From: Mariprofundaceae bacterium
GTDB lineage: Bacteria > Pseudomonadota > Zetaproteobacteria > Mariprofundales > Mariprofundaceae
Assembly (NCBI GenBank): GCA_030950585.1
Contig: JAUZRG010000204.1
Span: 1-37,926 of the forward strand
Direction of reading: 5' to 3'
Length of the DNA: 37,926 bases
A program made the translations under genes and the position numbers. The notes beneath the pieces were generated by a model. That model saw nothing but the letters and a program-made list of their open reading frames with translations. It did not search any database and was not told the DNA's origin. How positions within the stretch are numbered: the stretch's first letter is position 1; each line of letters begins with the position of its first letter. Positions 371 through 26,099 of the stretch are shown one piece after another.

Positions 371-410
371 GCCCCTATATTTTTATGTTTGTATTCAAAA
401 ATATAGGGGC
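371..410. repeat. 14-bp perfect hairpin beyond the epsilon-paralogue gene
   Basis: The arm gcccctatattttt (371-384) is perfectly repeated in inverse orientation at 397-410, with a 12-nt loop. It lies 26 bp past the stop of the leftward atpC-like gene, so it may end or stabilise that transcript. There is no T-run after the stem on the minus strand, so it is not a textbook Rho-independent terminator. It could also be an end of the mobile element whose transposase debris lies beside it. Confidence 0.55.
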
Positions 411-436
411 TAATATCACGATGTCATGGTGATGGC

Positions 437-862
437 CTATTTGATAAATTTATTTGCACTTTTCACAACAGTAAAACGAGCAATAGCTATTTCTAAGGCG
501 ATGAGTGCTTGATGTGAATTTGCGGGTGAAGCATGATGAAAATGATCCTTCGCATGCTGTACTGCTTGGCTAGCTTGAGTAATATCAAGCTGTTCAGAGC
601 GTTCCACGGCATCTGCTAGTATGGTAATAGCATCAGGTTGAATCTCCATGAATCCACCTAAAACGACGATATGCTCATGTTTTATGTCGGGACAATGGCA
701 ATCAGGAAGGCAGTCGATACGCACAATACCAGGGCGTAAAATTGCGAGTAGCGGTGCATGTCCTTGATAAATTTTCAGCTCCCCATTCGTCGTAGAGCCA
801 ACAAGTGAGCATGCTTTAGCGCGATAAATTTCCTTTTCAGCAGTCGTAATTAATATTTTCAT
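437..862 (-). CDS. Second ATP synthase epsilon subunit (AtpC paralogue) with Cys/His insertion
   Basis: This is a 141-residue homologue of the F1 epsilon subunit. It has the N-terminal beta-sandwich (TAEKEIYRAKA, GELKIYQGHAPLL, GGFMEIQPDAITILAD) and a shortened helical C-terminus. The ordinary atpC of this genome is at 25689-26099, so this is an extra copy. Relative to it, the loop after the conserved LRPG is about seven residues longer and holds CLPDCHCPDIKHEH, three Cys and three His within 14 residues; the normal copy has no such cluster. The start is taken at the ATG at 862 because GGGAGGTG lies 8-9 nt upstream; a GTG at 865 is possible. It is the last gene of a leftward run of metal-handling genes, 15 bp after the membrane protein. 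Fold membership is solid. A role in metal binding or in an ATP synthase is inference. Confidence 0.85.
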   Translation of the reverse strand: MKILITTAEKEIYRAKACSLVGSTTNGELKIYQGHAPLLAILRPGIVRIDCLPDCHCPDIKHEHIVVLGGFMEIQPDAITILADAVERSEQLDITQASQAVQHAKDHFHHASPANSHQALIALEIAIARFTVVKSANKFIK

Positions 863-877
863 CACCCATCACCTCCC

Positions 878-1510
878 TTACTGAAGCTTTTCCATAACAA
901 AAAACATATTGAATGGTTTTTTCTTTGAAAATCCGATTGATTCGAGCATCAAGACACCTAACAAAGCAATCATTGATCCTAAAAGTAGACCTACCGCAGG
1001 CCCGAATAACCACATAACACTCGCTTCAGCAGCTTGTGGCCCTAGCTCTACTGTACGAAAACCCATCAAAATCCATGCAGGTGGATATAGCACAGATCCC
1101 AATCCCAGTGTCCAGCCAAATACTTTTTTCCAGCAATCCTTCAAAGATGTAAATGCCGTGATCAATAATAATACAGCAGCCAAAACACCAAGACCCATAA
1201 AGTGAATATGGCCGCGTAATAGACGTTGCATCGCGTCTTTTGCCAATGAACCCGAATGTGAGTGTTGTTCTCCTGCTGCATGGCTATGCTCAGCATGCTT
1301 GTTGCCTGCATGATGCCCCATATCCATTTGACTCATATCTAAGTTATTCATCATGTTTTCTGTATGGGCTTTCTTTTGAGCGGCTTCAGCAGCTTCAAAT
1401 GCACCATGTAGTTTTTCATGATGTGTGGCCATATAAGCCGCCCACAACGCTCCCATAACCAAGGCGAGTAGAGCTAAAATAAGACCATGACGAATACTTT
1501 CAATGTTCAT
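878..1510 (-). CDS. Four-helix membrane protein with His/Met-rich loop
   Basis: A 210-residue protein that I do not assign to a named family. A first membrane helix spans about residues 9-29. A hydrophilic segment (about 30-95) follows, rich in His and Met (MSQMDMGHHAG, HAEHSHAAGEQHSHS) and typical of Cu/Ag or Zn handling. Three more helices lie near 100-120, 130-152 and 165-190. The loop between helices 1 and 2 is probably periplasmic. The start ATG overlaps the end of the preceding gene by 11 bp, which suggests translational coupling to the periplasmic His-rich protein. Lying between that protein and the AtpC paralogue, downstream of CusA, it is probably part of a copper/silver resistance operon. 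That role is inferred from composition and neighbours. Confidence 0.75.
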   Translation of the reverse strand: MNIESIRHGLILALLALVMGALWAAYMATHHEKLHGAFEAAEAAQKKAHTENMMNNLDMSQMDMGHHAGNKHAEHSHAAGEQHSHSGSLAKDAMQRLLRGHIHFMGLGVLAAVLLLITAFTSLKDCWKKVFGWTLGLGSVLYPPAWILMGFRTVELGPQAAEASVMWLFGPAVGLLLGSMIALLGVLMLESIGFSKKKPFNMFFVMEKLQ

Positions 1511-2006
1511 GGCTTACACCTTGTTCATGTGCATGGGTACTTTTCTTTTCTGGGTAATACACGCCGCCTGAATGCTTCACACCATCTGATGTTTTAAAAA
1601 GAATTATGAGTTGGTGTTGTCCTTCATGGCCAAGATCATAGCCTGCCATGTACCAGTCGCCCATTTTCATAAGCATCTTGGATTCAGCCTTATTGTTGGG
1701 GTGAACAACCTTTGAATTTATGCTTAAATCACCAAGGACGTGGCCATCCTTTTCAACTTTAATCATGACATTATGTGTGCCACCGTGCTGCATACCTTCT
1801 TTGACCTTCATGGCATGAAAGCTAACTTGAAAACCATCAATGTCTTTTTTGACCAAAAACATGCCTGTCATTTGACCCATATCGCTTTGCTGCGATTTAG
1901 CTTGCATGTTGTGATGTTCGCCACCGTGTTGGTGTGCGTCAGCCGCAAATACACTCGGCACTGATGTGATGGCTAGTAATGCAGCCAAAATAATAGTTTT
2001 TTTCAT
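1500..2006 (-). CDS. Periplasmic His/Met-rich protein, FixH/YtkA-like
   Basis: A 168-residue protein with a clear Sec signal peptide (MKKTIILAALLAITSVPSVFAAD, cut after about residue 21). The mature N-terminus is metal-binding in character (HQHGGEHHNMQ). A single beta-rich domain follows with a pattern like YtkA/FixH domains (SKMLMKMGDWYMAGYDLG, GQHQLIILF), and the tail is His-rich (HAHEQGVSHEH). AAGGAA stands at normal distance before the ATG. A 141-bp gap separates it from the upstream lipoprotein, so it may have its own promoter. Family assignment is tentative. Copper or silver binding in the periplasm is inferred from composition and from lying just downstream of CusA. Confidence 0.75.
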   Translation of the reverse strand: MKKTIILAALLAITSVPSVFAADAHQHGGEHHNMQAKSQQSDMGQMTGMFLVKKDIDGFQVSFHAMKVKEGMQHGGTHNVMIKVEKDGHVLGDLSINSKVVHPNNKAESKMLMKMGDWYMAGYDLGHEGQHQLIILFKTSDGVKHSGGVYYPEKKSTHAHEQGVSHEH

Positions 2007-2147: not shown

Positions 2148-2294
2148 TTAATGCTTGTGTTCTAAAATATAGGGCGAACTTACGGTGTCCGTATTCTCAT
2201 TGCCTGTATGCTCCCAACCTTTTCCATCATGCATATTACAGCCAGCTAACCAATTGGTGCTTACAAGAAAAAAGACAATCATTATTTTTTTCAT
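2148..2294 (-). CDS. Small lipoprotein coupled to cusA
   Basis: A 48-residue protein with a lipoprotein signal, MKKIMIVFFLVSTNWLAGC, in which LAGC is the lipobox and Cys19 the lipidated residue. The mature part is only about 30 residues, polar, with a Met-His-Asp start and an EHKH end. Its ATG overlaps the cusA stop as ATGA (2291-2294), so translation is probably coupled. A longer in-frame extension towards 2450 runs inside cusA in another frame and is not the real start. Very short lipoproteins next to RND metal pumps are common, but I know no function for this one. Metal binding through the His residues is a guess. Confidence 0.75.
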   Translation of the reverse strand: MKKIMIVFFLVSTNWLAGCNMHDGKGWEHTGNENTDTVSSPYILEHKH

Positions 2295-5200
2295 GTTAAT
2301 TCCTCTGTTCTGTATTTTTCTTTCCATTGCAGTACCAAACCGTAAATCACGGGAAGTACCAGCAAGCTCAATAAGGTGGCTGTGATCATGCCACCAATCA
2401 TGGGTGCAGCGATGCGTTGCATGACATCGGAACCCGTGCCACTGCCCCACATAATGGGGATAAGGCCAGCAACCACCGCTGTGGCCGTCATGGCAATGGG
2501 TCGCACACGTTGGGTAGTGCCTGATTGCACAGCATGTATGATTTCATCCACTGTCAGTTTTCTGGTTTCTGTGAGTTTCTCTCTGGATTTTGCAATTGAT
2601 TGATCAATAAAGGTCATGACCAACACGCCAATTTCCGCAGAGACTCCAGCCAAGGCGATAAAACCAACCGATACGGCCACACTCATGTTATAATCCAAAT
2701 ACCACACCAACCAAAAGCCACCGATCAAGGCAAAAGGAATGGATAACATCACCACTAACGGTGCGGTAAAATTTCTAAAATTGAAAAACAACAATAAGAA
2801 GATGGTCAATAAGGTGATGGGAACAACTACACGTAAGCGGGCTTCTGCTCGTTCCATATATTCAAATTGACCTGACCATACCAAAGAGTAACCCGCAGGT
2901 ATGTTGACGTTTGCTTCCACCTGTTTTTTAGCTTGCGCCACATAACCACCAATATCGCTGGTTTTAATGTCCACATAAATCCATGCGTTGGGCGTGGCAT
3001 TTTCTGTTTTTACCACAGGTGGGCCACGGCGAAGTTTTAAATCGCTCACCAAAGATAAGGGGATTTGCGCCCCTGTCGGGGTGGGAATCAAGACACGTTT
3101 TAAGGTCTGCATATTGTCACGTAATTCTCGTGGGTAACGAATGTTGATGGGGTAACGCTCTAAGCCTTCAACGGTTTCACTCACATTCATGCCACCAATG
3201 GCGGATTGAATCACATCTTGAATATCACCTACCGTTAAACCATAGCGTGCGGCTTCAGCGCGTTTAATATCAAAATCAAGGTAATACCCACCTGCGGCTT
3301 TATCAGCGAAAGCTGAAAGGGTATCAGGCAGTTGTTTTAAAGTTTGCTCAATATCACCCGCAACTTTCTCTAAAACTTTTAAGTCTGAACCTGATACTTT
3401 AATGCCAATCGGAGTTTTAATACCTGTGGATAACATATCAATCCGTGTTTTGATGGGATAGGTCCACGCATTCGCTAAACCAGGAAATTTAATGGCATCA
3501 TCCATTTCAGCCATCAAGGCTTTGGTGGTTTTGTTGGGGTCAGGCCACTCCTCTTTGGGTTTTAAACGAATGGTCGTTTCCAGCATGGCCAAGGGTGCAG
3601 GATCTGTGGCTGTTTCAGCACGCCCAACTTTACCAAAGACATGATGCACCTCAGGGAAGGTTTTCAATATTTTATCGGTTTGCTGCAAGAGTTCTTTGGC
3701 TTTGGTGATAGAAATACCGGGGTAAGTGGTTGGCATATACAAAATATCGCCTTCATCCAAAGGAGGCATAAACTCTGAGCCTGTATGCATGATAGGATAG
3801 GCTGTTGCTCCAAGTAGAAGTAGTGCAATCACTAAAGTGATCGAACGCCAGCGCATGGCAAAAGCAAGCAAGGGGCGGTGCAAGCGTTTTAAGCACACAT
3901 TTAAAAAGTTATGCTCTTCACTGGGTATTTTACCTCGAATAAGTAAACCCATCAACACAGGAACCAAGGTCACTGCCAACAGTGCAGCCGCTGCCATCGC
4001 ATAGGTTTTGGTAAAAGCCAAGGGGGCAAACAAACGCCCTTCTTGGGCTTGTAAGGTAAAGACAGGCAAAAAGGACACGGTGATAATGACCAAACTAAAA
4101 AACAAGGCTGGCCCTACTTCTTGAGATGCGTTCAAAATAGCATGCCATCGTTCTTTGCTACTGGCATTTTCCCTCAGTCTTTCCAAGTGTTTATGCGCAT
4201 TTTCAATCATCACAATGGCACCATCAATCATGGCACCAATGGCAATGGCAATGCCACCTAAACTCATGATATTTGCCGATAATCCTTGCCAGTTCATAAT
4301 CATAAAGGCGATCAAAATACCAATGGGTAAACTAATGATGGCCACCAAGGCACTGCGCACATGCATTAAAAAGATCAAGCAAATGATGGCCACAACAATG
4401 GATTCTTCGATGAGTTTTTCAGCCAAGTTGTCCACAGCACGTTCAATCAAATCACCGCGATCATAGACAGGCACGATTTCCACACCTTGCGGTAGACCTT
4501 TTTTAAGCTGTGCTAGTTTTTCACGTACACGCTCAATGGTTGCCATCGCATTTTCACCAAAGCGCATGATGATAATGCCACCAGCCACTTCACCTTCACC
4601 ATTTAAGTCAACTAAGCCACGACGTAGTTCAGGCCCTAAGTGAATATTGGCAATTTGTTTTAAATAAATGGGCGTTCCCAAGTCATCAGCACCCACAGGA
4701 ATCATTCTCAAATCATTTAAGCTTTGGATATAACCCAAGCCACGCACCATGTATTCGGTTTCACCCATTTCGATTAAACGTCCGCCCACATTGTTGTTGG
4801 AACGCTGAATAGCATGTTTTATTTTGGCTAAGGGGATATTGTATGCGAGTAAGGCATCGGGATTAAGTTCCACTTGATATTGTTTCACAAAACCACCAAT
4901 GGAGGCCACTTCTGAAACCCCTTCCACGGTTTGCAAGGGATAGCGCAAATACCAATCTTGCATGGAGCGTAATTGGGCTAGGTCATGTCGTCCTGTTTTA
5001 TCAACCAAGGCATACTCATAAACCCAACCCACACCTGTGGCATCTGGGCCTAAAGTCGGTGATACGCCTGTGGGCAAGCGATCAGCGGCATAATTGAGGT
5101 ATTCTAAAACCCTTGTACGCGCCCAATACATATCGGTACCATCTTTAAAGATCACATAAACCATTGAAAAACCAAAGAAAGAATAACCGCGCACAACTTT

Positions 5201-5437
5201 AGTATTGGGCACAGAAAGCATGGCAGTGGTCAGAGGATAGGTAATTTGATCTTCCACCACTTGCGGTGCTTGGCCAGCATATTTAGTAAACACAATGACT
5301 TGGACATCAGATAAATCAGGAATGGCATCAAGTGGCGTGTTTTTCATGGCTTGAAAGCCTGCAAAGGAAATCAATAAGGTGGCAATGAGCACCAAGAATC
5401 GATTCTGTATCGAAATAGCAATCAGTGAGTGAATCAT
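2291..5437 (-). CDS. cusA: CusA-type Cu(I)/Ag(I) RND efflux transporter
   Basis: A 1048-residue inner-membrane RND pump of the heavy-metal efflux family, normal length for CusA/CzcA. It drives periplasmic and cytoplasmic metal out through CusB and CusC using the proton gradient. The fourth transmembrane segment reads AIGAMIDGAIVMIENAHKHL, the pattern of the monovalent-cation (Cu/Ag) pumps rather than the divalent CzcA type. The Met-containing periplasmic stretches match E. coli CusA (LDEGDILYMPTTYPG; RIDMLSTGIKTPIGIKVSG), where methionines relay Cu(I). Twelve helices are expected and hydrophobic blocks fit this. The gene lies 142 bp after cusB, with several hairpins between them, and overlaps the next lipoprotein gene by 4 bp. 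Substrate specificity is inferred from these motifs and the Met-rich partners. Confidence 0.95.
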   Translation of the reverse strand: MIHSLIAISIQNRFLVLIATLLISFAGFQAMKNTPLDAIPDLSDVQVIVFTKYAGQAPQVVEDQITYPLTTAMLSVPNTKVVRGYSFFGFSMVYVIFKDGTDMYWARTRVLEYLNYAADRLPTGVSPTLGPDATGVGWVYEYALVDKTGRHDLAQLRSMQDWYLRYPLQTVEGVSEVASIGGFVKQYQVELNPDALLAYNIPLAKIKHAIQRSNNNVGGRLIEMGETEYMVRGLGYIQSLNDLRMIPVGADDLGTPIYLKQIANIHLGPELRRGLVDLNGEGEVAGGIIIMRFGENAMATIERVREKLAQLKKGLPQGVEIVPVYDRGDLIERAVDNLAEKLIEESIVVAIICLIFLMHVRSALVAIISLPIGILIAFMIMNWQGLSANIMSLGGIAIAIGAMIDGAIVMIENAHKHLERLRENASSKERWHAILNASQEVGPALFFSLVIITVSFLPVFTLQAQEGRLFAPLAFTKTYAMAAAALLAVTLVPVLMGLLIRGKIPSEEHNFLNVCLKRLHRPLLAFAMRWRSITLVIALLLLGATAYPIMHTGSEFMPPLDEGDILYMPTTYPGISITKAKELLQQTDKILKTFPEVHHVFGKVGRAETATDPAPLAMLETTIRLKPKEEWPDPNKTTKALMAEMDDAIKFPGLANAWTYPIKTRIDMLSTGIKTPIGIKVSGSDLKVLEKVAGDIEQTLKQLPDTLSAFADKAAGGYYLDFDIKRAEAARYGLTVGDIQDVIQSAIGGMNVSETVEGLERYPINIRYPRELRDNMQTLKRVLIPTPTGAQIPLSLVSDLKLRRGPPVVKTENATPNAWIYVDIKTSDIGGYVAQAKKQVEANVNIPAGYSLVWSGQFEYMERAEARLRVVVPITLLTIFLLLFFNFRNFTAPLVVMLSIPFALIGGFWLVWYLDYNMSVAVSVGFIALAGVSAEIGVLVMTFIDQSIAKSREKLTETRKLTVDEIIHAVQSGTTQRVRPIAMTATAVVAGLIPIMWGSGTGSDVMQRIAAPMIGGMITATLLSLLVLPVIYGLVLQWKEKYRTEELT

Positions 5438-5579: not shown

Positions 5580-7172
5580 TCATTTGCTGCCTTCCATCTT
5601 CATGTCGTCCATCTTTATGTCGTCCATCTGCATATCATCCATCTGCATGTCGTCCATCTTCATGCCGTCCATCTGCATGCCGTCCATCTTCATGCCGTCC
5701 ATCTGCATATCGTCCATTTTCATGTCGTCCATCTTCATGTCGTCCATCTGCATGGATGGCTTCGATTTGATTTGCTGTGCTTCCAACATTTTAGCTGTTG
5801 CTTCTTTGAGTTTTGATTCAGAATCAATCAAAAACTGACTCGATGTGACCACAATTTCTCCAGCCTTTAAGCCTTCGATAATTTGTGCTTCACCTTCAGA
5901 GTCGACACCTACCACGACTTTACGTGGTTCATACTTGCCTTTTTCTCGCTGAACAAAGACTTGCTCTTGTTCACCTGTGCGCACAATGGCTTCGGAAGGA
6001 ACCACAATGGCATGAAGCTGGCGACCTGCTTGTACAGTCACTTTGGCAAACATTTCAGGCTTGAGTTGAAGATCAGAGTTATCAAATTCCAAGCGCATTT
6101 TCACAGTGCGTGTTTTAGCTTCGAGGTAAGGATAAATATAACTGACAATACCTGTAAATTTCTTACCCAATATACCAGAGACCGTCATGACTGCTGTATC
6201 ACCTTCTTTGACCCAAGGTAAGTCATCTTCGTAAAGATCGACAATGACCCAGACATGGCTTAAATCTGCGATCATGTATAATTCTGTATCGGGTGTAATA
6301 CGTTGACCATCTCGCGCACCGATATTGATCACAATGCCATCAAAGGGTGAATGAATATGAATGGCTTTTGGTACGCGACCACGTTGGCGAATATCCCTGA
6401 GTTGGTGGGCAGGGACATCCAGTAATTTCAGGCGTTGTAAGGATGTTTGCAATAAGCGTTTTGCACCGTCACGAATATCAGGGAAAGGACTGTCTTTAAA
6501 AATTTTCCAATTGTTTAAAGCCAATAAATATTCTTCGCCACTGGCAACGAGTTGTGGTGAATAAATGGCTAACAACATATCTCCCTTAGACACTTTATCG
6601 CCTGTTTTTTGCACAAACAGCTCTTCAATCCATCCATCTATTTTAGGGTGAAGGCGTGTGACTCGTTGCTCATCGTAGGTGACACGGCCGATGGTATGCA
6701 CATCCCTAGAAATATTTTTTGTCACTGCTTTAGTGGTGCGCACCCCAATGTTTTGAATGACTGTGGCATTGATGCGCACAGTACCAGTAGGCGAGTTACT
6801 GTTGTCACTCCCTTCTGCATATACAGGAATATAATCCATGCCCATATTGTCTTTGGCTGGTATAGGTGAGGTGACGGCTGGGTTCATAGGGTTACGATAA
6901 AATAGCACCTTTTTTTCTACTTTGGCTTCAGCACATATGGGTAAATAATTCATACCCATTTCATCTTTGCTAAATACAGGTGAAGTGATGGCTGGATTCA
7001 TAGGGTTACGCCAACTCAAGGCTTGTGAACCATCAGGGCATGGGCCATCAGCTTTGGCGGTTTTTTCTGTGCTTGAAGATGAGGGTGATAACCATTGTGA
7101 GGCAAAATAACCGATGACTAGCCCACCTATCAGCATACTTATCGCACCGATAGTTAATTTTAAATTATTCAT
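5580..7172 (-). CDS. cusB: CusB-type periplasmic adaptor with two metal-binding motifs and Met/Asp repeat tail
   Basis: The membrane-fusion subunit linking CusA to CusC. After an N-terminal membrane anchor (about residues 5-27) come two copies of the heavy-metal-binding motif seen in CusB-like adaptors, WRNPMNPAITSPVFSKDEMG and YRNPMNPAVTSPIPAKDNMG. The usual lipoyl/hairpin and beta-barrel regions follow (HSPFDGIVINIGARDGQ; TGEQEQVFVQREKGKYEPR). The last ~57 residues are 11 tandem five-residue units of the type M-(K/Q)-M-D-(D/G), encoded by a 15-bp repeat. The ATG at 7172 (530 aa) is preferred over an upstream TTG at 7184 because GGAGAG precedes it correctly. It overlaps the end of cusC by 8 bp, which indicates coupling. 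Family is certain; the Met tail is an unusual extension. Confidence 0.93.
   Translation of the reverse strand: MNNLKLTIGAISMLIGGLVIGYFASQWLSPSSSSTEKTAKADGPCPDGSQALSWRNPMNPAITSPVFSKDEMGMNYLPICAEAKVEKKVLFYRNPMNPAVTSPIPAKDNMGMDYIPVYAEGSDNSNSPTGTVRINATVIQNIGVRTTKAVTKNISRDVHTIGRVTYDEQRVTRLHPKIDGWIEELFVQKTGDKVSKGDMLLAIYSPQLVASGEEYLLALNNWKIFKDSPFPDIRDGAKRLLQTSLQRLKLLDVPAHQLRDIRQRGRVPKAIHIHSPFDGIVINIGARDGQRITPDTELYMIADLSHVWVIVDLYEDDLPWVKEGDTAVMTVSGILGKKFTGIVSYIYPYLEAKTRTVKMRLEFDNSDLQLKPEMFAKVTVQAGRQLHAIVVPSEAIVRTGEQEQVFVQREKGKYEPRKVVVGVDSEGEAQIIEGLKAGEIVVTSSQFLIDSESKLKEATAKMLEAQQIKSKPSMQMDDMKMDDMKMDDMQMDGMKMDGMQMDGMKMDDMQMDDMQMDDIKMDDMKMEGSK
5589..5753. repeat. 15-bp tandem repeat (11 units) at 3' end of cusB
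   Basis: Eleven consecutive 15-bp units of the form (plus strand) ccatcttcatgtcgt, with small variations, encode MKMDD/MQMDD/MKMDG-type pentapeptides. Only one unit breaks the Met pattern (IKMDD) and the last is MKMEG. Near identity at DNA level suggests recent expansion by slippage or unequal crossover, so the unit number may vary between strains. Confidence 0.9.
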
Positions 7173-8472
7173 GATTCTCTCCAAGGCTTGGTTTTTTACC
7201 CACAGCCTGAGCTAGCTTAGCATAGGCTTGACCTGCTTTTGTATAGTGTTTCCAGTATTGAATATCATGATTAAATTCGATAAGTTGTGCGCGTACTAAG
7301 TTTAAGAAATCCACTTTATTGACTTGGTAACCAGCCAACATCGAGGCGGTGGTTTGCCGTGACTGAGGGATAATCCCCAACTTAAATAACTGCATTTGTT
7401 TTTGAGATGTGTGCAGCTCGGAAACAGCACTATCAATATCAGCATTGATTTGATTAAGTGTGTTTTTCCATTTGAATTCTAATTGGGCTTGCTCTGCATG
7501 GCGTTGATCCAAAGCTTTATCTTGTTTACTATCCGTAAAAATAGGTAAGTTCATACTAAGCATCACACTGGCCATATCAGAACGTGTTTGATTGTTGGCT
7601 GGATTTGTTCCTTGCCTAAAACCATAAGCTGCACTCACCTTAAAGTCTGGGTAATAATCTTTATTGGCGAGATCAATACGTTTGTCTGCTGCATCAATTT
7701 GATGGCCTAAACTTTGCAATTTGGGATGAAACTTTTTAGCCCATTTTTTTAATCGTTCGACTTGGCTGACAGCACGACTCATGTCTGGTAACGGAGATGC
7801 TAACTGAATACTTGTATCTGTATCACGATTTAGAAGTGCATTTAATTGTGCCACCTGAACACGGCGTTCAGAAGTGAGTTTAAACGCTTGTTCTAAAATT
7901 TTACTGAGTTCAAGTTGAGCTAATAAGACATCTTGTTGCAAGCCTGCACCCGTTTTGTATTTGGCTTCAGAAATGCGCACTAAATTACGTAATAAATGTT
8001 GGTTGTTACGTACAATGAATAAGGCTTTATCTAAATAAGCAATATTCCACCAATGGATGCGAACATTTCGTAATAACACCAAACGTAATTCATCACGGTT
8101 GCTGATTGCCACTTTGGCTGTGTCTTTGGCAATCGCCTTTTTTAAATTCAGCTTTCCAGGGTAGGGTAGTTTCTGAGATATAGCCAATTGCATTTGAGTC
8201 ATATTTTCTTGCGTTGGTGAAAAGCTATTCACAGGCAAATTAAGAGCTTTAAAAGAAATAGTCGGATCTGCTAATGTACCCACTTGAGGCGGAATCATCG
8301 CTAAAGCTTGCATATGCTTTTCAGCGGCAAACAACGAGGGGTTTTGTTTTAACACCATTGTTTCTGCTTGTTGTAGACTTAAGGTGGGGCTTTCTTCGAG
8401 ATTGTTGACTGCCCATAATGATGGTGAAATCATCAATAAAGTAGTGAATAAGGCTGTTTTGTACAAAGACAT
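7165..8472 (-). CDS. cusC: CusC/TolC-family outer-membrane efflux protein
   Basis: A 435-residue TolC-superfamily outer-membrane channel, the exit duct of the CusCBA pump. A signal peptide is visible (MSLYKTALFTTLLMISPSLWA). Two TolC-type repeats follow, with helical segments such as LSLQQAETMVLKQNPSL and NPTISF-like strands (LADPTISFKALNLP), then a second helical repeat (LNQINADIDSAVSELHTSQK). The ATG at 8472 is preferred over one at 8487 because AGGAGG lies just upstream of it. No lipobox is seen, unlike E. coli CusC. It is the second gene of the leftward operon and overlaps cusB. TolC family is certain; the Cus assignment rests on its partners. Confidence 0.92.
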   Translation of the reverse strand: MSLYKTALFTTLLMISPSLWAVNNLEESPTLSLQQAETMVLKQNPSLFAAEKHMQALAMIPPQVGTLADPTISFKALNLPVNSFSPTQENMTQMQLAISQKLPYPGKLNLKKAIAKDTAKVAISNRDELRLVLLRNVRIHWWNIAYLDKALFIVRNNQHLLRNLVRISEAKYKTGAGLQQDVLLAQLELSKILEQAFKLTSERRVQVAQLNALLNRDTDTSIQLASPLPDMSRAVSQVERLKKWAKKFHPKLQSLGHQIDAADKRIDLANKDYYPDFKVSAAYGFRQGTNPANNQTRSDMASVMLSMNLPIFTDSKQDKALDQRHAEQAQLEFKWKNTLNQINADIDSAVSELHTSQKQMQLFKLGIIPQSRQTTASMLAGYQVNKVDFLNLVRAQLIEFNHDIQYWKHYTKAGQAYAKLAQAVGKKPSLGENHE

Positions 8473-8562
8473 ACAGACCTCCTGCATTAAAATTCATGTG
8501 CAAAGCCATAAGCAGCACAAACCCAGACTCAGTCGAGCAGGGTCATTAGCAGAAGGTTAAAA

Positions 8563-10103: not shown

Positions 10104-10734
10104 ATGAAATACCTTGGTATTGAAAATGTGACGGTCAAGGTGGGATCAAAAGCTTTGATCTCTGATATTCATTTTAGGCTATATCCGGGAGAGATATGTG
10201 CATTGCTTGGCCCCTTCTGGCGCAGGCAAGAGCACGCTCATTAAAGCCATGTTATCCATGACTAAGTTAGAAGGTAAGGTTCATTTACCCCAACAAAAAT
10301 ACCCGATTGCATATGTGCCCCAAGATGATGCCGTGCACTTGAGTTTAACGGTGATGCAAGCCCTTGATTATGCCTGCCAACTTCGTTGCAAAGTCTTATC
10401 AAAGCTTAATAGCCTTAAATATATTGAGGCTATTGCCAAGGAAGTGGGCTTGAATGAACGCCTAGATCTTCGGATAAAAAGTCTTTCTGGCGGTCAGCGT
10501 AAGCGGGTGTCCGTTGCCTTGGAAATGCTGACCAAGCCCACATTCATGATCTTAGATGAACCTACTTCAGGTCTTGATCCCGGCATGGAGGCACAGTTGA
10601 TGCAGCTGTTTGCTAGTATTGCAAAGCAATATAAAATATTATTTTTTCACCGCAAAGATAAGCAAAGCCTGTGGTATATGGAGCTTGAAAACAGCTTAAG
10701 GAAAGTGAAAGGTGATAAGGATAAGAAGTTTTAA
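10104..10734 (+). pseudogene. Frameshifted, truncated ABC transporter ATPase
   Basis: From the ATG at 10104 the frame reads a typical start (MKYLGIENVTVKVG, then LYPGEICALLGP) and is then shifted by one extra C in the CCCC run at 10210-10213. The next frame continues with the Walker A (PSGAGKSTLIKAM), the Q-loop (YVPQDDAVHLSLTV), the signature (LSGGQRKRVSVALEML) and Walker B/D-loop (FMILDEPTSGLDPG). The wording resembles ABCG-like or FHA-domain export ATPases. After FASIAKQ the expected H-loop is missing and the sequence turns into an unrelated tail ending at 10734. No permease part is present. Two defects make a functional product unlikely, although the first could be a sequencing error. Confidence 0.8.
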
Positions 10735-11684
10735 TCCATCAACCAACGAACATGAAAGCCAAAGCTAAAATCTGCGGTCGTGTATTGGGTGATATTTTCG
10801 CTAAAGCTTAAAGTATAGAGCGCGGATTCACCTTGTATGCGCAGGCCAAAGTTCATGATCCAAGGGTTTTGTTCTAAAACATACAACTGGGATTGATAGG
10901 GTGAACTACCGCCTTGAATTTGAACTAAGACGCTGTAATGCTTGCCAAAGTCACGGCCTAAGGTCGCTGAAGCACGCACATAATGTTGATATTGCATCGA
11001 GCCTTCAGATTTCGCTCCTGTATAAATAGCGCGCAGTTCGCTGTGGGCAAAATAATCATCACCATGCCAAGAAAAAACAGTGCCTAGCGAAAAGTCTGCT
11101 TTGCCTGATGACCAACCGCGTGTTTTAGATGATGTGGGTAATTTAGCTGAAGCCAATAGGGCAATGGCGACACTGTTTTTTTTGTATACTTGCGATTGAA
11201 TCTCAAGGCTTATATTACCCATTTCCCAACGGTTTTCTGCTGACCATTGCGGCTTTAAATAGTAAGCCATCTGATTTTTAGGGCGAAACTCTCGGCCATT
11301 ATTGGGTAAGCCAGCCAAGCGATGATAATTGTTTAAAAAGCCATCCAACACCCCATTGTAAGGGCGATATAATGGTATGCGCAGGCTCACAATATGCTTT
11401 GGGCTAAGTTGTCTACGCACATGAAGAATGGGTACATAAAGTTCTGTATCCACTAAAAAACGACCATTTGGAACCGCATCAAACATATTTAAGCTGGCAT
11501 AGTGCTGTTCAAGCTCGATGCTATTGCCCATATCAAAAGCCGAAACGGGAATAGGATTGAAAAAACGCATCATGATGGGATGAAGCTGCTGGCTAGCGAG
11601 TGGCGCGCGCATACTGGCAGAAGCGGCAAAAGCGGTGTGAGACATGAAAAAGAAAGATAAGCATAAGAAAAAGATTGGACGCAT
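10731..11684 (-). CDS. DUF3187-like outer-membrane beta-barrel protein
   Basis: 317 residues with a signal peptide (FFLCLSFFFMSHTAFAAS). The mature part is all beta in character, with alternating hydrophobic strands and a C-terminal aromatic-rich end (ADFSFGFHVRWLMD) like an outer-membrane barrel signal. The RIPLYRPYNGVLDGFLNNYH and LAGLPNNGRE region looks like the DUF3187 family, proteins of unknown role. It is transcribed away from the SCO1-like gene and convergent with the broken ABC ATPase, overlapping its tail by 4 bp. Location is well supported; family is moderately supported; function is unknown. Confidence 0.7.
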   Translation of the reverse strand: MRPIFFLCLSFFFMSHTAFAASASMRAPLASQQLHPIMMRFFNPIPVSAFDMGNSIELEQHYASLNMFDAVPNGRFLVDTELYVPILHVRRQLSPKHIVSLRIPLYRPYNGVLDGFLNNYHRLAGLPNNGREFRPKNQMAYYLKPQWSAENRWEMGNISLEIQSQVYKKNSVAIALLASAKLPTSSKTRGWSSGKADFSLGTVFSWHGDDYFAHSELRAIYTGAKSEGSMQYQHYVRASATLGRDFGKHYSVLVQIQGGSSPYQSQLYVLEQNPWIMNFGLRIQGESALYTLSFSENITQYTTADFSFGFHVRWLMD

Positions 11685-25688: not shown

Positions 25689-26099
25689 TTATTTTCTACG
25701 TTTGCGTAACAACTTCAGACGAGCTGTCATCATGGCCAGTTCAGCTTCAGCCATAGCCAAATCAGAACCAGCTTGCTGTGAATTAACAGCTTCTTCTGCA
25801 CGACGTTGTGCAGCAACAATTTCAGCTTCATCCATATCAGCAGCACGTTCTGCAGTATCTGCAAGTATGGTTACCTTATGAGGTTGAACTTCGATAAAAC
25901 CACCAGAAATAAAGACTTCCTCTTCATTTTCACCGTTTATAATACGTAATTCACCAGGCTTTAATGCACTTAGTAAAGGCGAGTGACGAGGTAAAATACC
26001 TAATTCACCAGCTGCACCAGGCACAACCAGCATGGTTGCTTCACCTCGGTATACTTCACGCTCTGCCGTTGCGACCAATATTTCCATGCTAGTAGCCAT
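25689..26099 (-). CDS. atpC: ATP synthase F1 subunit epsilon
   Basis: 136 residues. It couples rotor movement to catalysis and can inhibit ATP hydrolysis. The N-terminal sandwich contains ILVATAEREVYRGEATMLVV, GELGILPRHSPLLSALKPGE and GGFIEVQPHKVTILADTAER. The C-terminal helical pair (residues about 92-136; AQRRAEEAVNSQ, ARLKLLRKRRK) is complete, unlike the shortened end of the paralogue at 437-862. It is the last gene of the operon, 5 bp after atpD. Confidence 0.97.
   Translation of the reverse strand: MATSMEILVATAEREVYRGEATMLVVPGAAGELGILPRHSPLLSALKPGELRIINGENEEEVFISGGFIEVQPHKVTILADTAERAADMDEAEIVAAQRRAEEAVNSQQAGSDLAMAEAELAMMTARLKLLRKRRK

Follow-up and report, generated by a model that had tools for sequence, protein, structure and literature searches.

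Zetaproteobacteria carry a family of solitary ("orphan") paralogues of the F1 epsilon subunit (AtpC), and the copy studied here ends a copper/silver efflux cluster in a Mariprofundaceae bacterium. By alignment, phylogeny and selection, the orphan epsilons are a real, conserved subfamily that is undescribed in the openly licensed texts searched. Their gene neighbourhoods indicate that the pairing with copper genes is one branch of a wider pattern, in which an orphan epsilon is linked to stress and substrate-level-ATP clusters. The window (the whole stretch of DNA that was analysed, 37,926 nucleotides) contains both the orphan gene and the canonical atpC of the same genome, and the coordinates of the features are collected in Table 1.

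Table 1. Features of the window that are discussed in the text
Feature	Position	Strand	Basis or remark
Strong hairpin just 3' of the epsilon gene	371..411	-	predicted folding energy of the region -30.9 kcal/mol, z=-5.6
Orphan AtpC/epsilon paralogue, 141 aa	440..862	-	stop codon 437-439; AlphaFold2 mean pLDDT 93.6; Foldseek 1aqt TM 0.82
C-terminal two-helix domain, residues 94-138	449..583	-	AlphaFold2 secondary structure
Extended hairpin loop, residues 51-64, CLPDCHCPDIKHEH; Cys51, 55, 57 and His56, 62, 64	671..712	-	coordinates calculated from the start at 862
Region of the orphan gene's ribosome-binding site, AAGGGAGGTGATGG	866..884	-	sequence
Membrane protein that has a segment rich in His and Met; homologues encoded close to orphans L039 and L057	878..1510	-	Pfam, NCBIfam: no match
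Exported His/Met-rich protein	1500..2006	-	28-29% identical homologue directly before epsilon in L038/L039
CusA/CzcA family RND heavy-metal efflux pump	2291..5437	-	TIGR00914, 1270.6 bits
CusB-like periplasmic adaptor with Met/Asp repeat tail	5580..7184	-	profile matches and reading of the repeats
CusC-like outer-membrane efflux protein	7165..8487	-	profile match
Canonical atpC within the atp operon, for comparison	25689..26099	-	ORF and profile match

Judged from its sequence, the window gene is a complete AtpC paralogue that is intact and selectively maintained. The protein matched the N-terminal beta-sandwich profile PF02823 with E=1.6e-19 and the family model TIGR01216 with 90.8 bits (cut-off 67.25), while the match to PF00401 did not reach 1e-3, a threshold that the canonical copy likewise missed. 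The best Foldseek match of the AlphaFold2 model was E. coli epsilon (1aqt). The ATG start gives the protein of 141 aa, and an alternative GTG start at 865 would give 142 aa. The Shine-Dalgarno sequence is near-perfect (AAGGGAGGTGATG), and 12-15 bp separate the start of the gene from the end of the one before it. The hairpin behind the gene is a possible transcript end; it has no T-run, so it is no classical terminator, and the terminator scan did not detect it. Pseudogene status of the gene was ruled out by dN/dS and its intact structure. Just past the epsilon gene, the contig end (1-300) holds a frameshifted, decayed transposase remnant, which from its motif we take to be IS630-like.

The epsilon gene had been predicted to end a cus-type cluster and to be a second copy beside a normal atpC in the atp operon, and both claims held. 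The cluster runs CusC-CusB-CusA, a small lipoprotein-like ORF, the exported His/Met-rich protein, the membrane protein and epsilon, and its pump, adaptor and outer-membrane protein were identified by profile. The tail of the CusB-like adaptor (5593-5754, minus strand, at the 3' end of the gene) is encoded by about 11 tandem 15-bp repeats with units such as M-x-M-D-D/G, and this Met/Asp-rich tail is possibly a copper-binding extension. Farther along the window, an ABC-transporter ATPase-like ORF of 178 aa (10198-10734) looks truncated and adjoins a gene for a DUF3187 protein (10731-11684). The atp operon lies 25 kb from the orphan epsilon on the same contig. The whole genome has two epsilon genes only, the canonical one and the orphan, and a single F-ATPase; a third PF00006 match reads as Rho. 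The orphan copy thus sits in the cus-type cluster and not next to atpD, and no F-ATPase genes were seen beside the orphan loci of other genomes (L038-L062).

The most distinctive feature of the orphan protein is the extended hairpin loop. From the turn after LRPG to the GG of the return strand, the window protein has a spacer of 23 residues with three Cys. The same spacer comprises 21-29 residues in the orphan relatives (23 in most) and 16-17 in canonical zetaproteobacterial AtpC. An orphan-type loop was defined by a spacer of at least 21 residues and at least two Cys, and the window protein has both. The original prediction of a loop about seven residues longer (23 versus 16) and rich in Cys and His was therefore confirmed, with residue numbers that were higher by one because they had been counted from the GTG start. 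The insertion also proved to be conserved among the homologues. The long loop is universal in the orphan clade, and at least two loop Cys are present in 23/26 orphans compared with 0/17 canonical copies (Fisher p=1.4e-8, calculated on the automatically scored 22/26 versus 0/17). The first loop Cys, which opens the hairpin (C51 column), occurs in 23 of the 26 aligned orphans. The number and spacing of the loop Cys vary among orphans: L051 and L061 have one and L059 has none, so a single metal-sensing mechanism cannot serve the whole family. The copper-linked loops have a C-x3-C plus a third Cys in common, and their ligands would suit either Cu(I)/Ag(I) binding or disulfide formation. Four members of the PPK2/phosphoketolase (XFP) branch (L041, L042, L044 and L046) have the form C-x5-C-x2-C-H, which recalls a metal or thiol site; in these iron oxidisers, iron is a possible ligand.

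The C-terminal helical part, which had been predicted to be shortened, turned out to be of full length. The window protein has 53 residues after LADxxER, compared with 51-53 in canonical AtpC and 49-60 in the orphans, and AlphaFold2 predicted the two helices at residues 94-109 and 113-138, with confidence that is high to about residue 130. Five His at residues 103-117 (512-556; HAKDHFHH...H) surround the turn between these helices, and this cluster is absent from relatives. Of the positions fixed in canonical copies, whether in the sandwich or in either helix, orphans keep most, and near-invariant across both groups are H35, P37, L38, L39, G45, G69, G70, E73, Q75, L82-D84, R88, L123 and A128. 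Residues common to both groups may partly reflect the fold and not contacts. Among the positions that orphans keep are those of E. coli His38 and Leu42, which we take to touch gamma. Three C-terminal residues that are fixed in canonical copies, R99, E120 and Q127 (E. coli numbering), are altered in many orphans, and the brake may accordingly work differently in these proteins or not at all.

A scan of 84,980 species genomes yielded 25 further orphan loci (L038-L062), all in Zetaproteobacteria or in MAGs that group with them; the more distant matches whose neighbours were read were normal atp operons. Together with L012 the orphan set comprised 26 copies, or 27 sequences with the window gene. 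About 25 of the 78 Zetaproteobacteria genomes carry at least one orphan, and one MAG has three. Within the class, orphans scored 165-238 bits against the family profile and most canonical copies 97-145 bits, and among the matches listed for 398 Pseudomonadota genomes no protein from outside the class exceeded 120 bits. Spread on plasmids was rejected as an explanation, as tblastn against 72,556 plasmid records returned only AtpC of <60% identity (24-43% in the matches listed). In the maximum-likelihood tree all orphans, including the window gene, formed one clade (support 100/99) beside canonical zetaproteobacterial AtpC, and the orphans therefore probably arose by duplication within or before the class. 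Pairwise omega was 0.06-0.17 in all computable pairs but one, and values of about 0.1 indicate that the orphan genes are under purifying selection and maintained. Outside the Zetaproteobacteria, a second PF02823 match was found in 28 sampled genomes, and most of the copies checked lie in N-type or duplicate atp operons. Five such second copies have no adjoining atp genes, two of which (L147, L169) gave no clean epsilon ORF by simple ORF calling. Solitary AtpC genes outside any atp operon were seen in other Pseudomonadota (L168, L170, L172).

The neighbours of the orphans were read by a simple ORF procedure from loci that are mostly MAG contigs, a few of which end next to the gene, and contexts inside one clade are not independent events. 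Four orphans are linked to copper genes (the window gene, L038, L039 and L040) and form one supported sub-clade (97/93). In L038 and L039 the order is MCO-CopB-FixH-like-epsilon-Cu-ATPase, with a multicopper oxidase (TIGR01480), a CopB-like protein, a His/Met-rich protein and a Cu-ATPase (TIGR01511) as neighbours, and epsilon overlaps the upstream copper gene by a few bp; in L040, Cu-ATPases lie just downstream of epsilon. The nearest sisters of this sub-clade are linked to other genes. L045 and L051 lie near an ECF sigma factor, an ArsP permease and a cytochrome c'-like protein, to which L051 adds ACR3 and ArsR, and L059, the arsenic-linked member whose loop has no Cys, lies near ACR3, ArsR and an ArsJ-associated GAPDH.

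A second clade of 14 includes orphans with PPK2, with phosphoketolase/acetate kinase, or with MarC, ion channel and RND genes. In L041, L044, L047, L057 and L050 the next gene downstream of the orphan is a PPK2 (TIGR03709 subfamily), and in L054 one lies 2.2 kb away; in L041 and L057, no more than about 13 bp lie between the epsilon stop and the PPK2 start. Two of these PPK2 genes, each right downstream of an intact orphan epsilon, are frameshifted or partly deleted, namely the frameshifted one of L041 (1085-1900) and the broken one of L050 (7959-8520); a second, intact PPK2 is present in the L041 genome (G034). Phosphoketolase or acetate kinase genes are near the orphans of L050, L053 and L054, and in L056 epsilon lies between the two (XFP-epsilon-AckA) with spacings of about 4 and 10 bp. 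Phosphoketolase was found in 11 of the 78 zetaproteobacterial genomes, ten of which also have an orphan epsilon (Fisher p=2e-5, with genomes treated as unrelated). MarC, ion channel and RND genes are near L043, L046 and L048. For several orphans, e.g., L042, L048, L061 and L062, no stress or energy gene stands out among the neighbours. The prediction of a copper-responsive variant thus survived in part: the pairing of epsilon with copper genes recurs in other genomes and is real in one sub-clade, but the arsenic, PPK2, phosphoketolase/acetate kinase and MarC/RND contexts of the sisters mean that a response to copper cannot be the family-wide role.

The best explanation, to which we assign a probability of roughly 0.4, is that the orphan is an exchangeable epsilon, made together with stress or substrate-level-ATP operons, that would replace AtpC on F1 and reset the brake on hydrolysis, with the Cys loop as a putative metal or thiol sensor. 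The epsilon fold, with sandwich and helix positions kept, favours exchange with AtpC on F1, and the Cys-bearing loops and the many placements with metal-resistance or emergency-energy genes suggest that cells may swap the brake of the ATP synthase according to stress. When the operon is switched on, the orphan epsilon would compete with canonical AtpC for the gamma/beta site on F1; once bound, it would alter the strength of the restraint on ATP hydrolysis. The loop would serve as input and the two C-terminal helices as output, so that Cu(I)/Ag(I) binding or oxidation at the Cys loop would relay the stress to the brake at the C-terminus. In the copper branch, F1 might be kept from burning ATP while copper disables respiration, and in the PPK2/XFP branch the orphan might set whether ATP derived from polyphosphate or acetyl phosphate is allowed to run F1Fo in reverse. 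Somewhat doubtful is a broader version, in which Zetaproteobacteria keep a set of exchangeable epsilons, one for every stress or substrate-level-ATP operon, all bearing metal- or thiol-sensing loops of their own, and the active operon re-programs the brake on the rotor of the one ATP synthase. To our knowledge, control of a bacterial F1Fo by subunit exchange has not been described, and epsilon is regarded as an unchanging component present in one copy. If the reading is correct, stress sensing would be coupled directly to the ATP synthase through epsilons that belong to copper, arsenic, polyphosphate and acetyl-phosphate clusters. Such epsilons would also offer, in organisms that subsist on the low energy yield of iron oxidation, natural variants with which to address the unsettled role of the epsilon C-terminal domain. 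Whether hydrolysis would rise or fall cannot be read from the sequence: the epsilon C-terminal domain is described as a restraint on the ATPase in several bacteria, but in B. subtilis it enhances ATPase activity and ATP-driven pumping (PMC6692558), and epsilon as such is often said to restrain hydrolysis (PMC5436830, PMC10010621).

Two rival explanations, both unlikely and to a similar degree, concern what the loop does and where the protein acts. The loop might be a thiol switch and not a metal sensor, with a disulfide that would form under oxidative or metal stress and change the epsilon brake, by analogy with chloroplast gamma, in which the disulfide of an inserted loop is a precedent. The loop holds two or three Cys in most members, with a fixed one where the hairpin begins and a further one several residues later, and this pattern is alike in metal and non-metal contexts. 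However, the shared Cys arrangement of the copper branch, together with the three loop His of the window protein, looks more like a metal site, and the members with a single loop Cys or none argue against a disulfide. Alternatively, the epsilon fold may have been recruited away from F1 as a cytosolic metal or thiol binder that serves the resistance cluster as a metal buffer, chaperone or sensor. The solitary gene, its Cys/His loop, its position in a metal cluster and the His cluster between the C-terminal helices of the window copy would all suit such a role, but the retention of most canonical-fixed positions and of both helices under purifying selection speaks against it, and many sisters lie near ATP-producing enzymes and not metal genes.

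It is considerably less probable that the orphan is a passenger, i.e., a duplicated atpC carried on resistance islands with no stress-specific role. Its patchy spread through the class, the decayed transposase adjoining the window gene, the varied contexts and the broken PPK2 partners are consistent with this, but omega of about 0.1, a Cys loop conserved in orphans and missing from the canonical copy, and the recurrent tight spacing or overlap with neighbours argue against it. Least probable by far is an origin from another rotary ATPase operon, of the N type, of which the gene would be a remnant. The class does have N-ATPases whose operons include an epsilon gene (L145, L146), and the N-type order is beta-epsilon-X-X-a-c-b/delta-alpha-gamma (PMC11738941). 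The window protein, however, matches TIGR01216 and not the N-type epsilon model TIGR03166, and its genome has no N-ATPase alpha or beta. This origin was ruled out by the profile and the genome search, and the tree, which held no N-type rows, agreed in placing the gene beside canonical zetaproteobacterial AtpC.

The orphan epsilon was compared with the closest known systems; no description of an orphan epsilon, or of an epsilon with XFP, PPK2 or copper clusters, was found in the openly licensed literature. The orphan resembles the F1 epsilon (TIGR01216; 1AQT) in fold, conserved residues and the two C-terminal helices, and differs in its place outside the atp operon, in being a second genomic copy, in the seven additional loop residues with Cys and in the altered C-terminal residues. 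Paracoccus zeta, mitochondrial IF1 and cyanobacterial AtpTheta are F1 regulators with folds unrelated to epsilon, and the likeness lies in the proposed control of ATP hydrolysis by a separately encoded protein; we know of none among them that is a paralogue that would replace epsilon. Chloroplast gamma is a rotor subunit whose inserted loop likewise bears paired Cys, but the orphan's loop lies in epsilon, so that it is not of the gamma type, and its thiol chemistry is putative. Regulation of F1 by zeta and epsilon is treated in PMC8039183. The solitary AtpC of L168, L170 and L172 also represent a second atpC away from the atp operon; unlike the orphan clade, they have neither loop extension nor loop Cys, and no obvious metal or ATP-enzyme neighbours. 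The second Foldseek match of the window model was the integrative model 9a4b of an AbrB-ATPE pair, in which an epsilon-type subunit is modelled in contact with a transcription regulator.

N-type ATPases likewise bring a second epsilon into a genome, but the orphan has no accompanying alpha, beta and c genes, and the profile scores exclude the N type. N-type operons were seen to adjoin phosphoketolase (L145), PPK2 (L146) and acetate kinase (L153). Together with the orphan epsilons, they make two kinds of rotary-ATPase module that lie beside enzymes making ATP without respiration, and a general link between N-ATPases and substrate-level ATP enzymes is possible.
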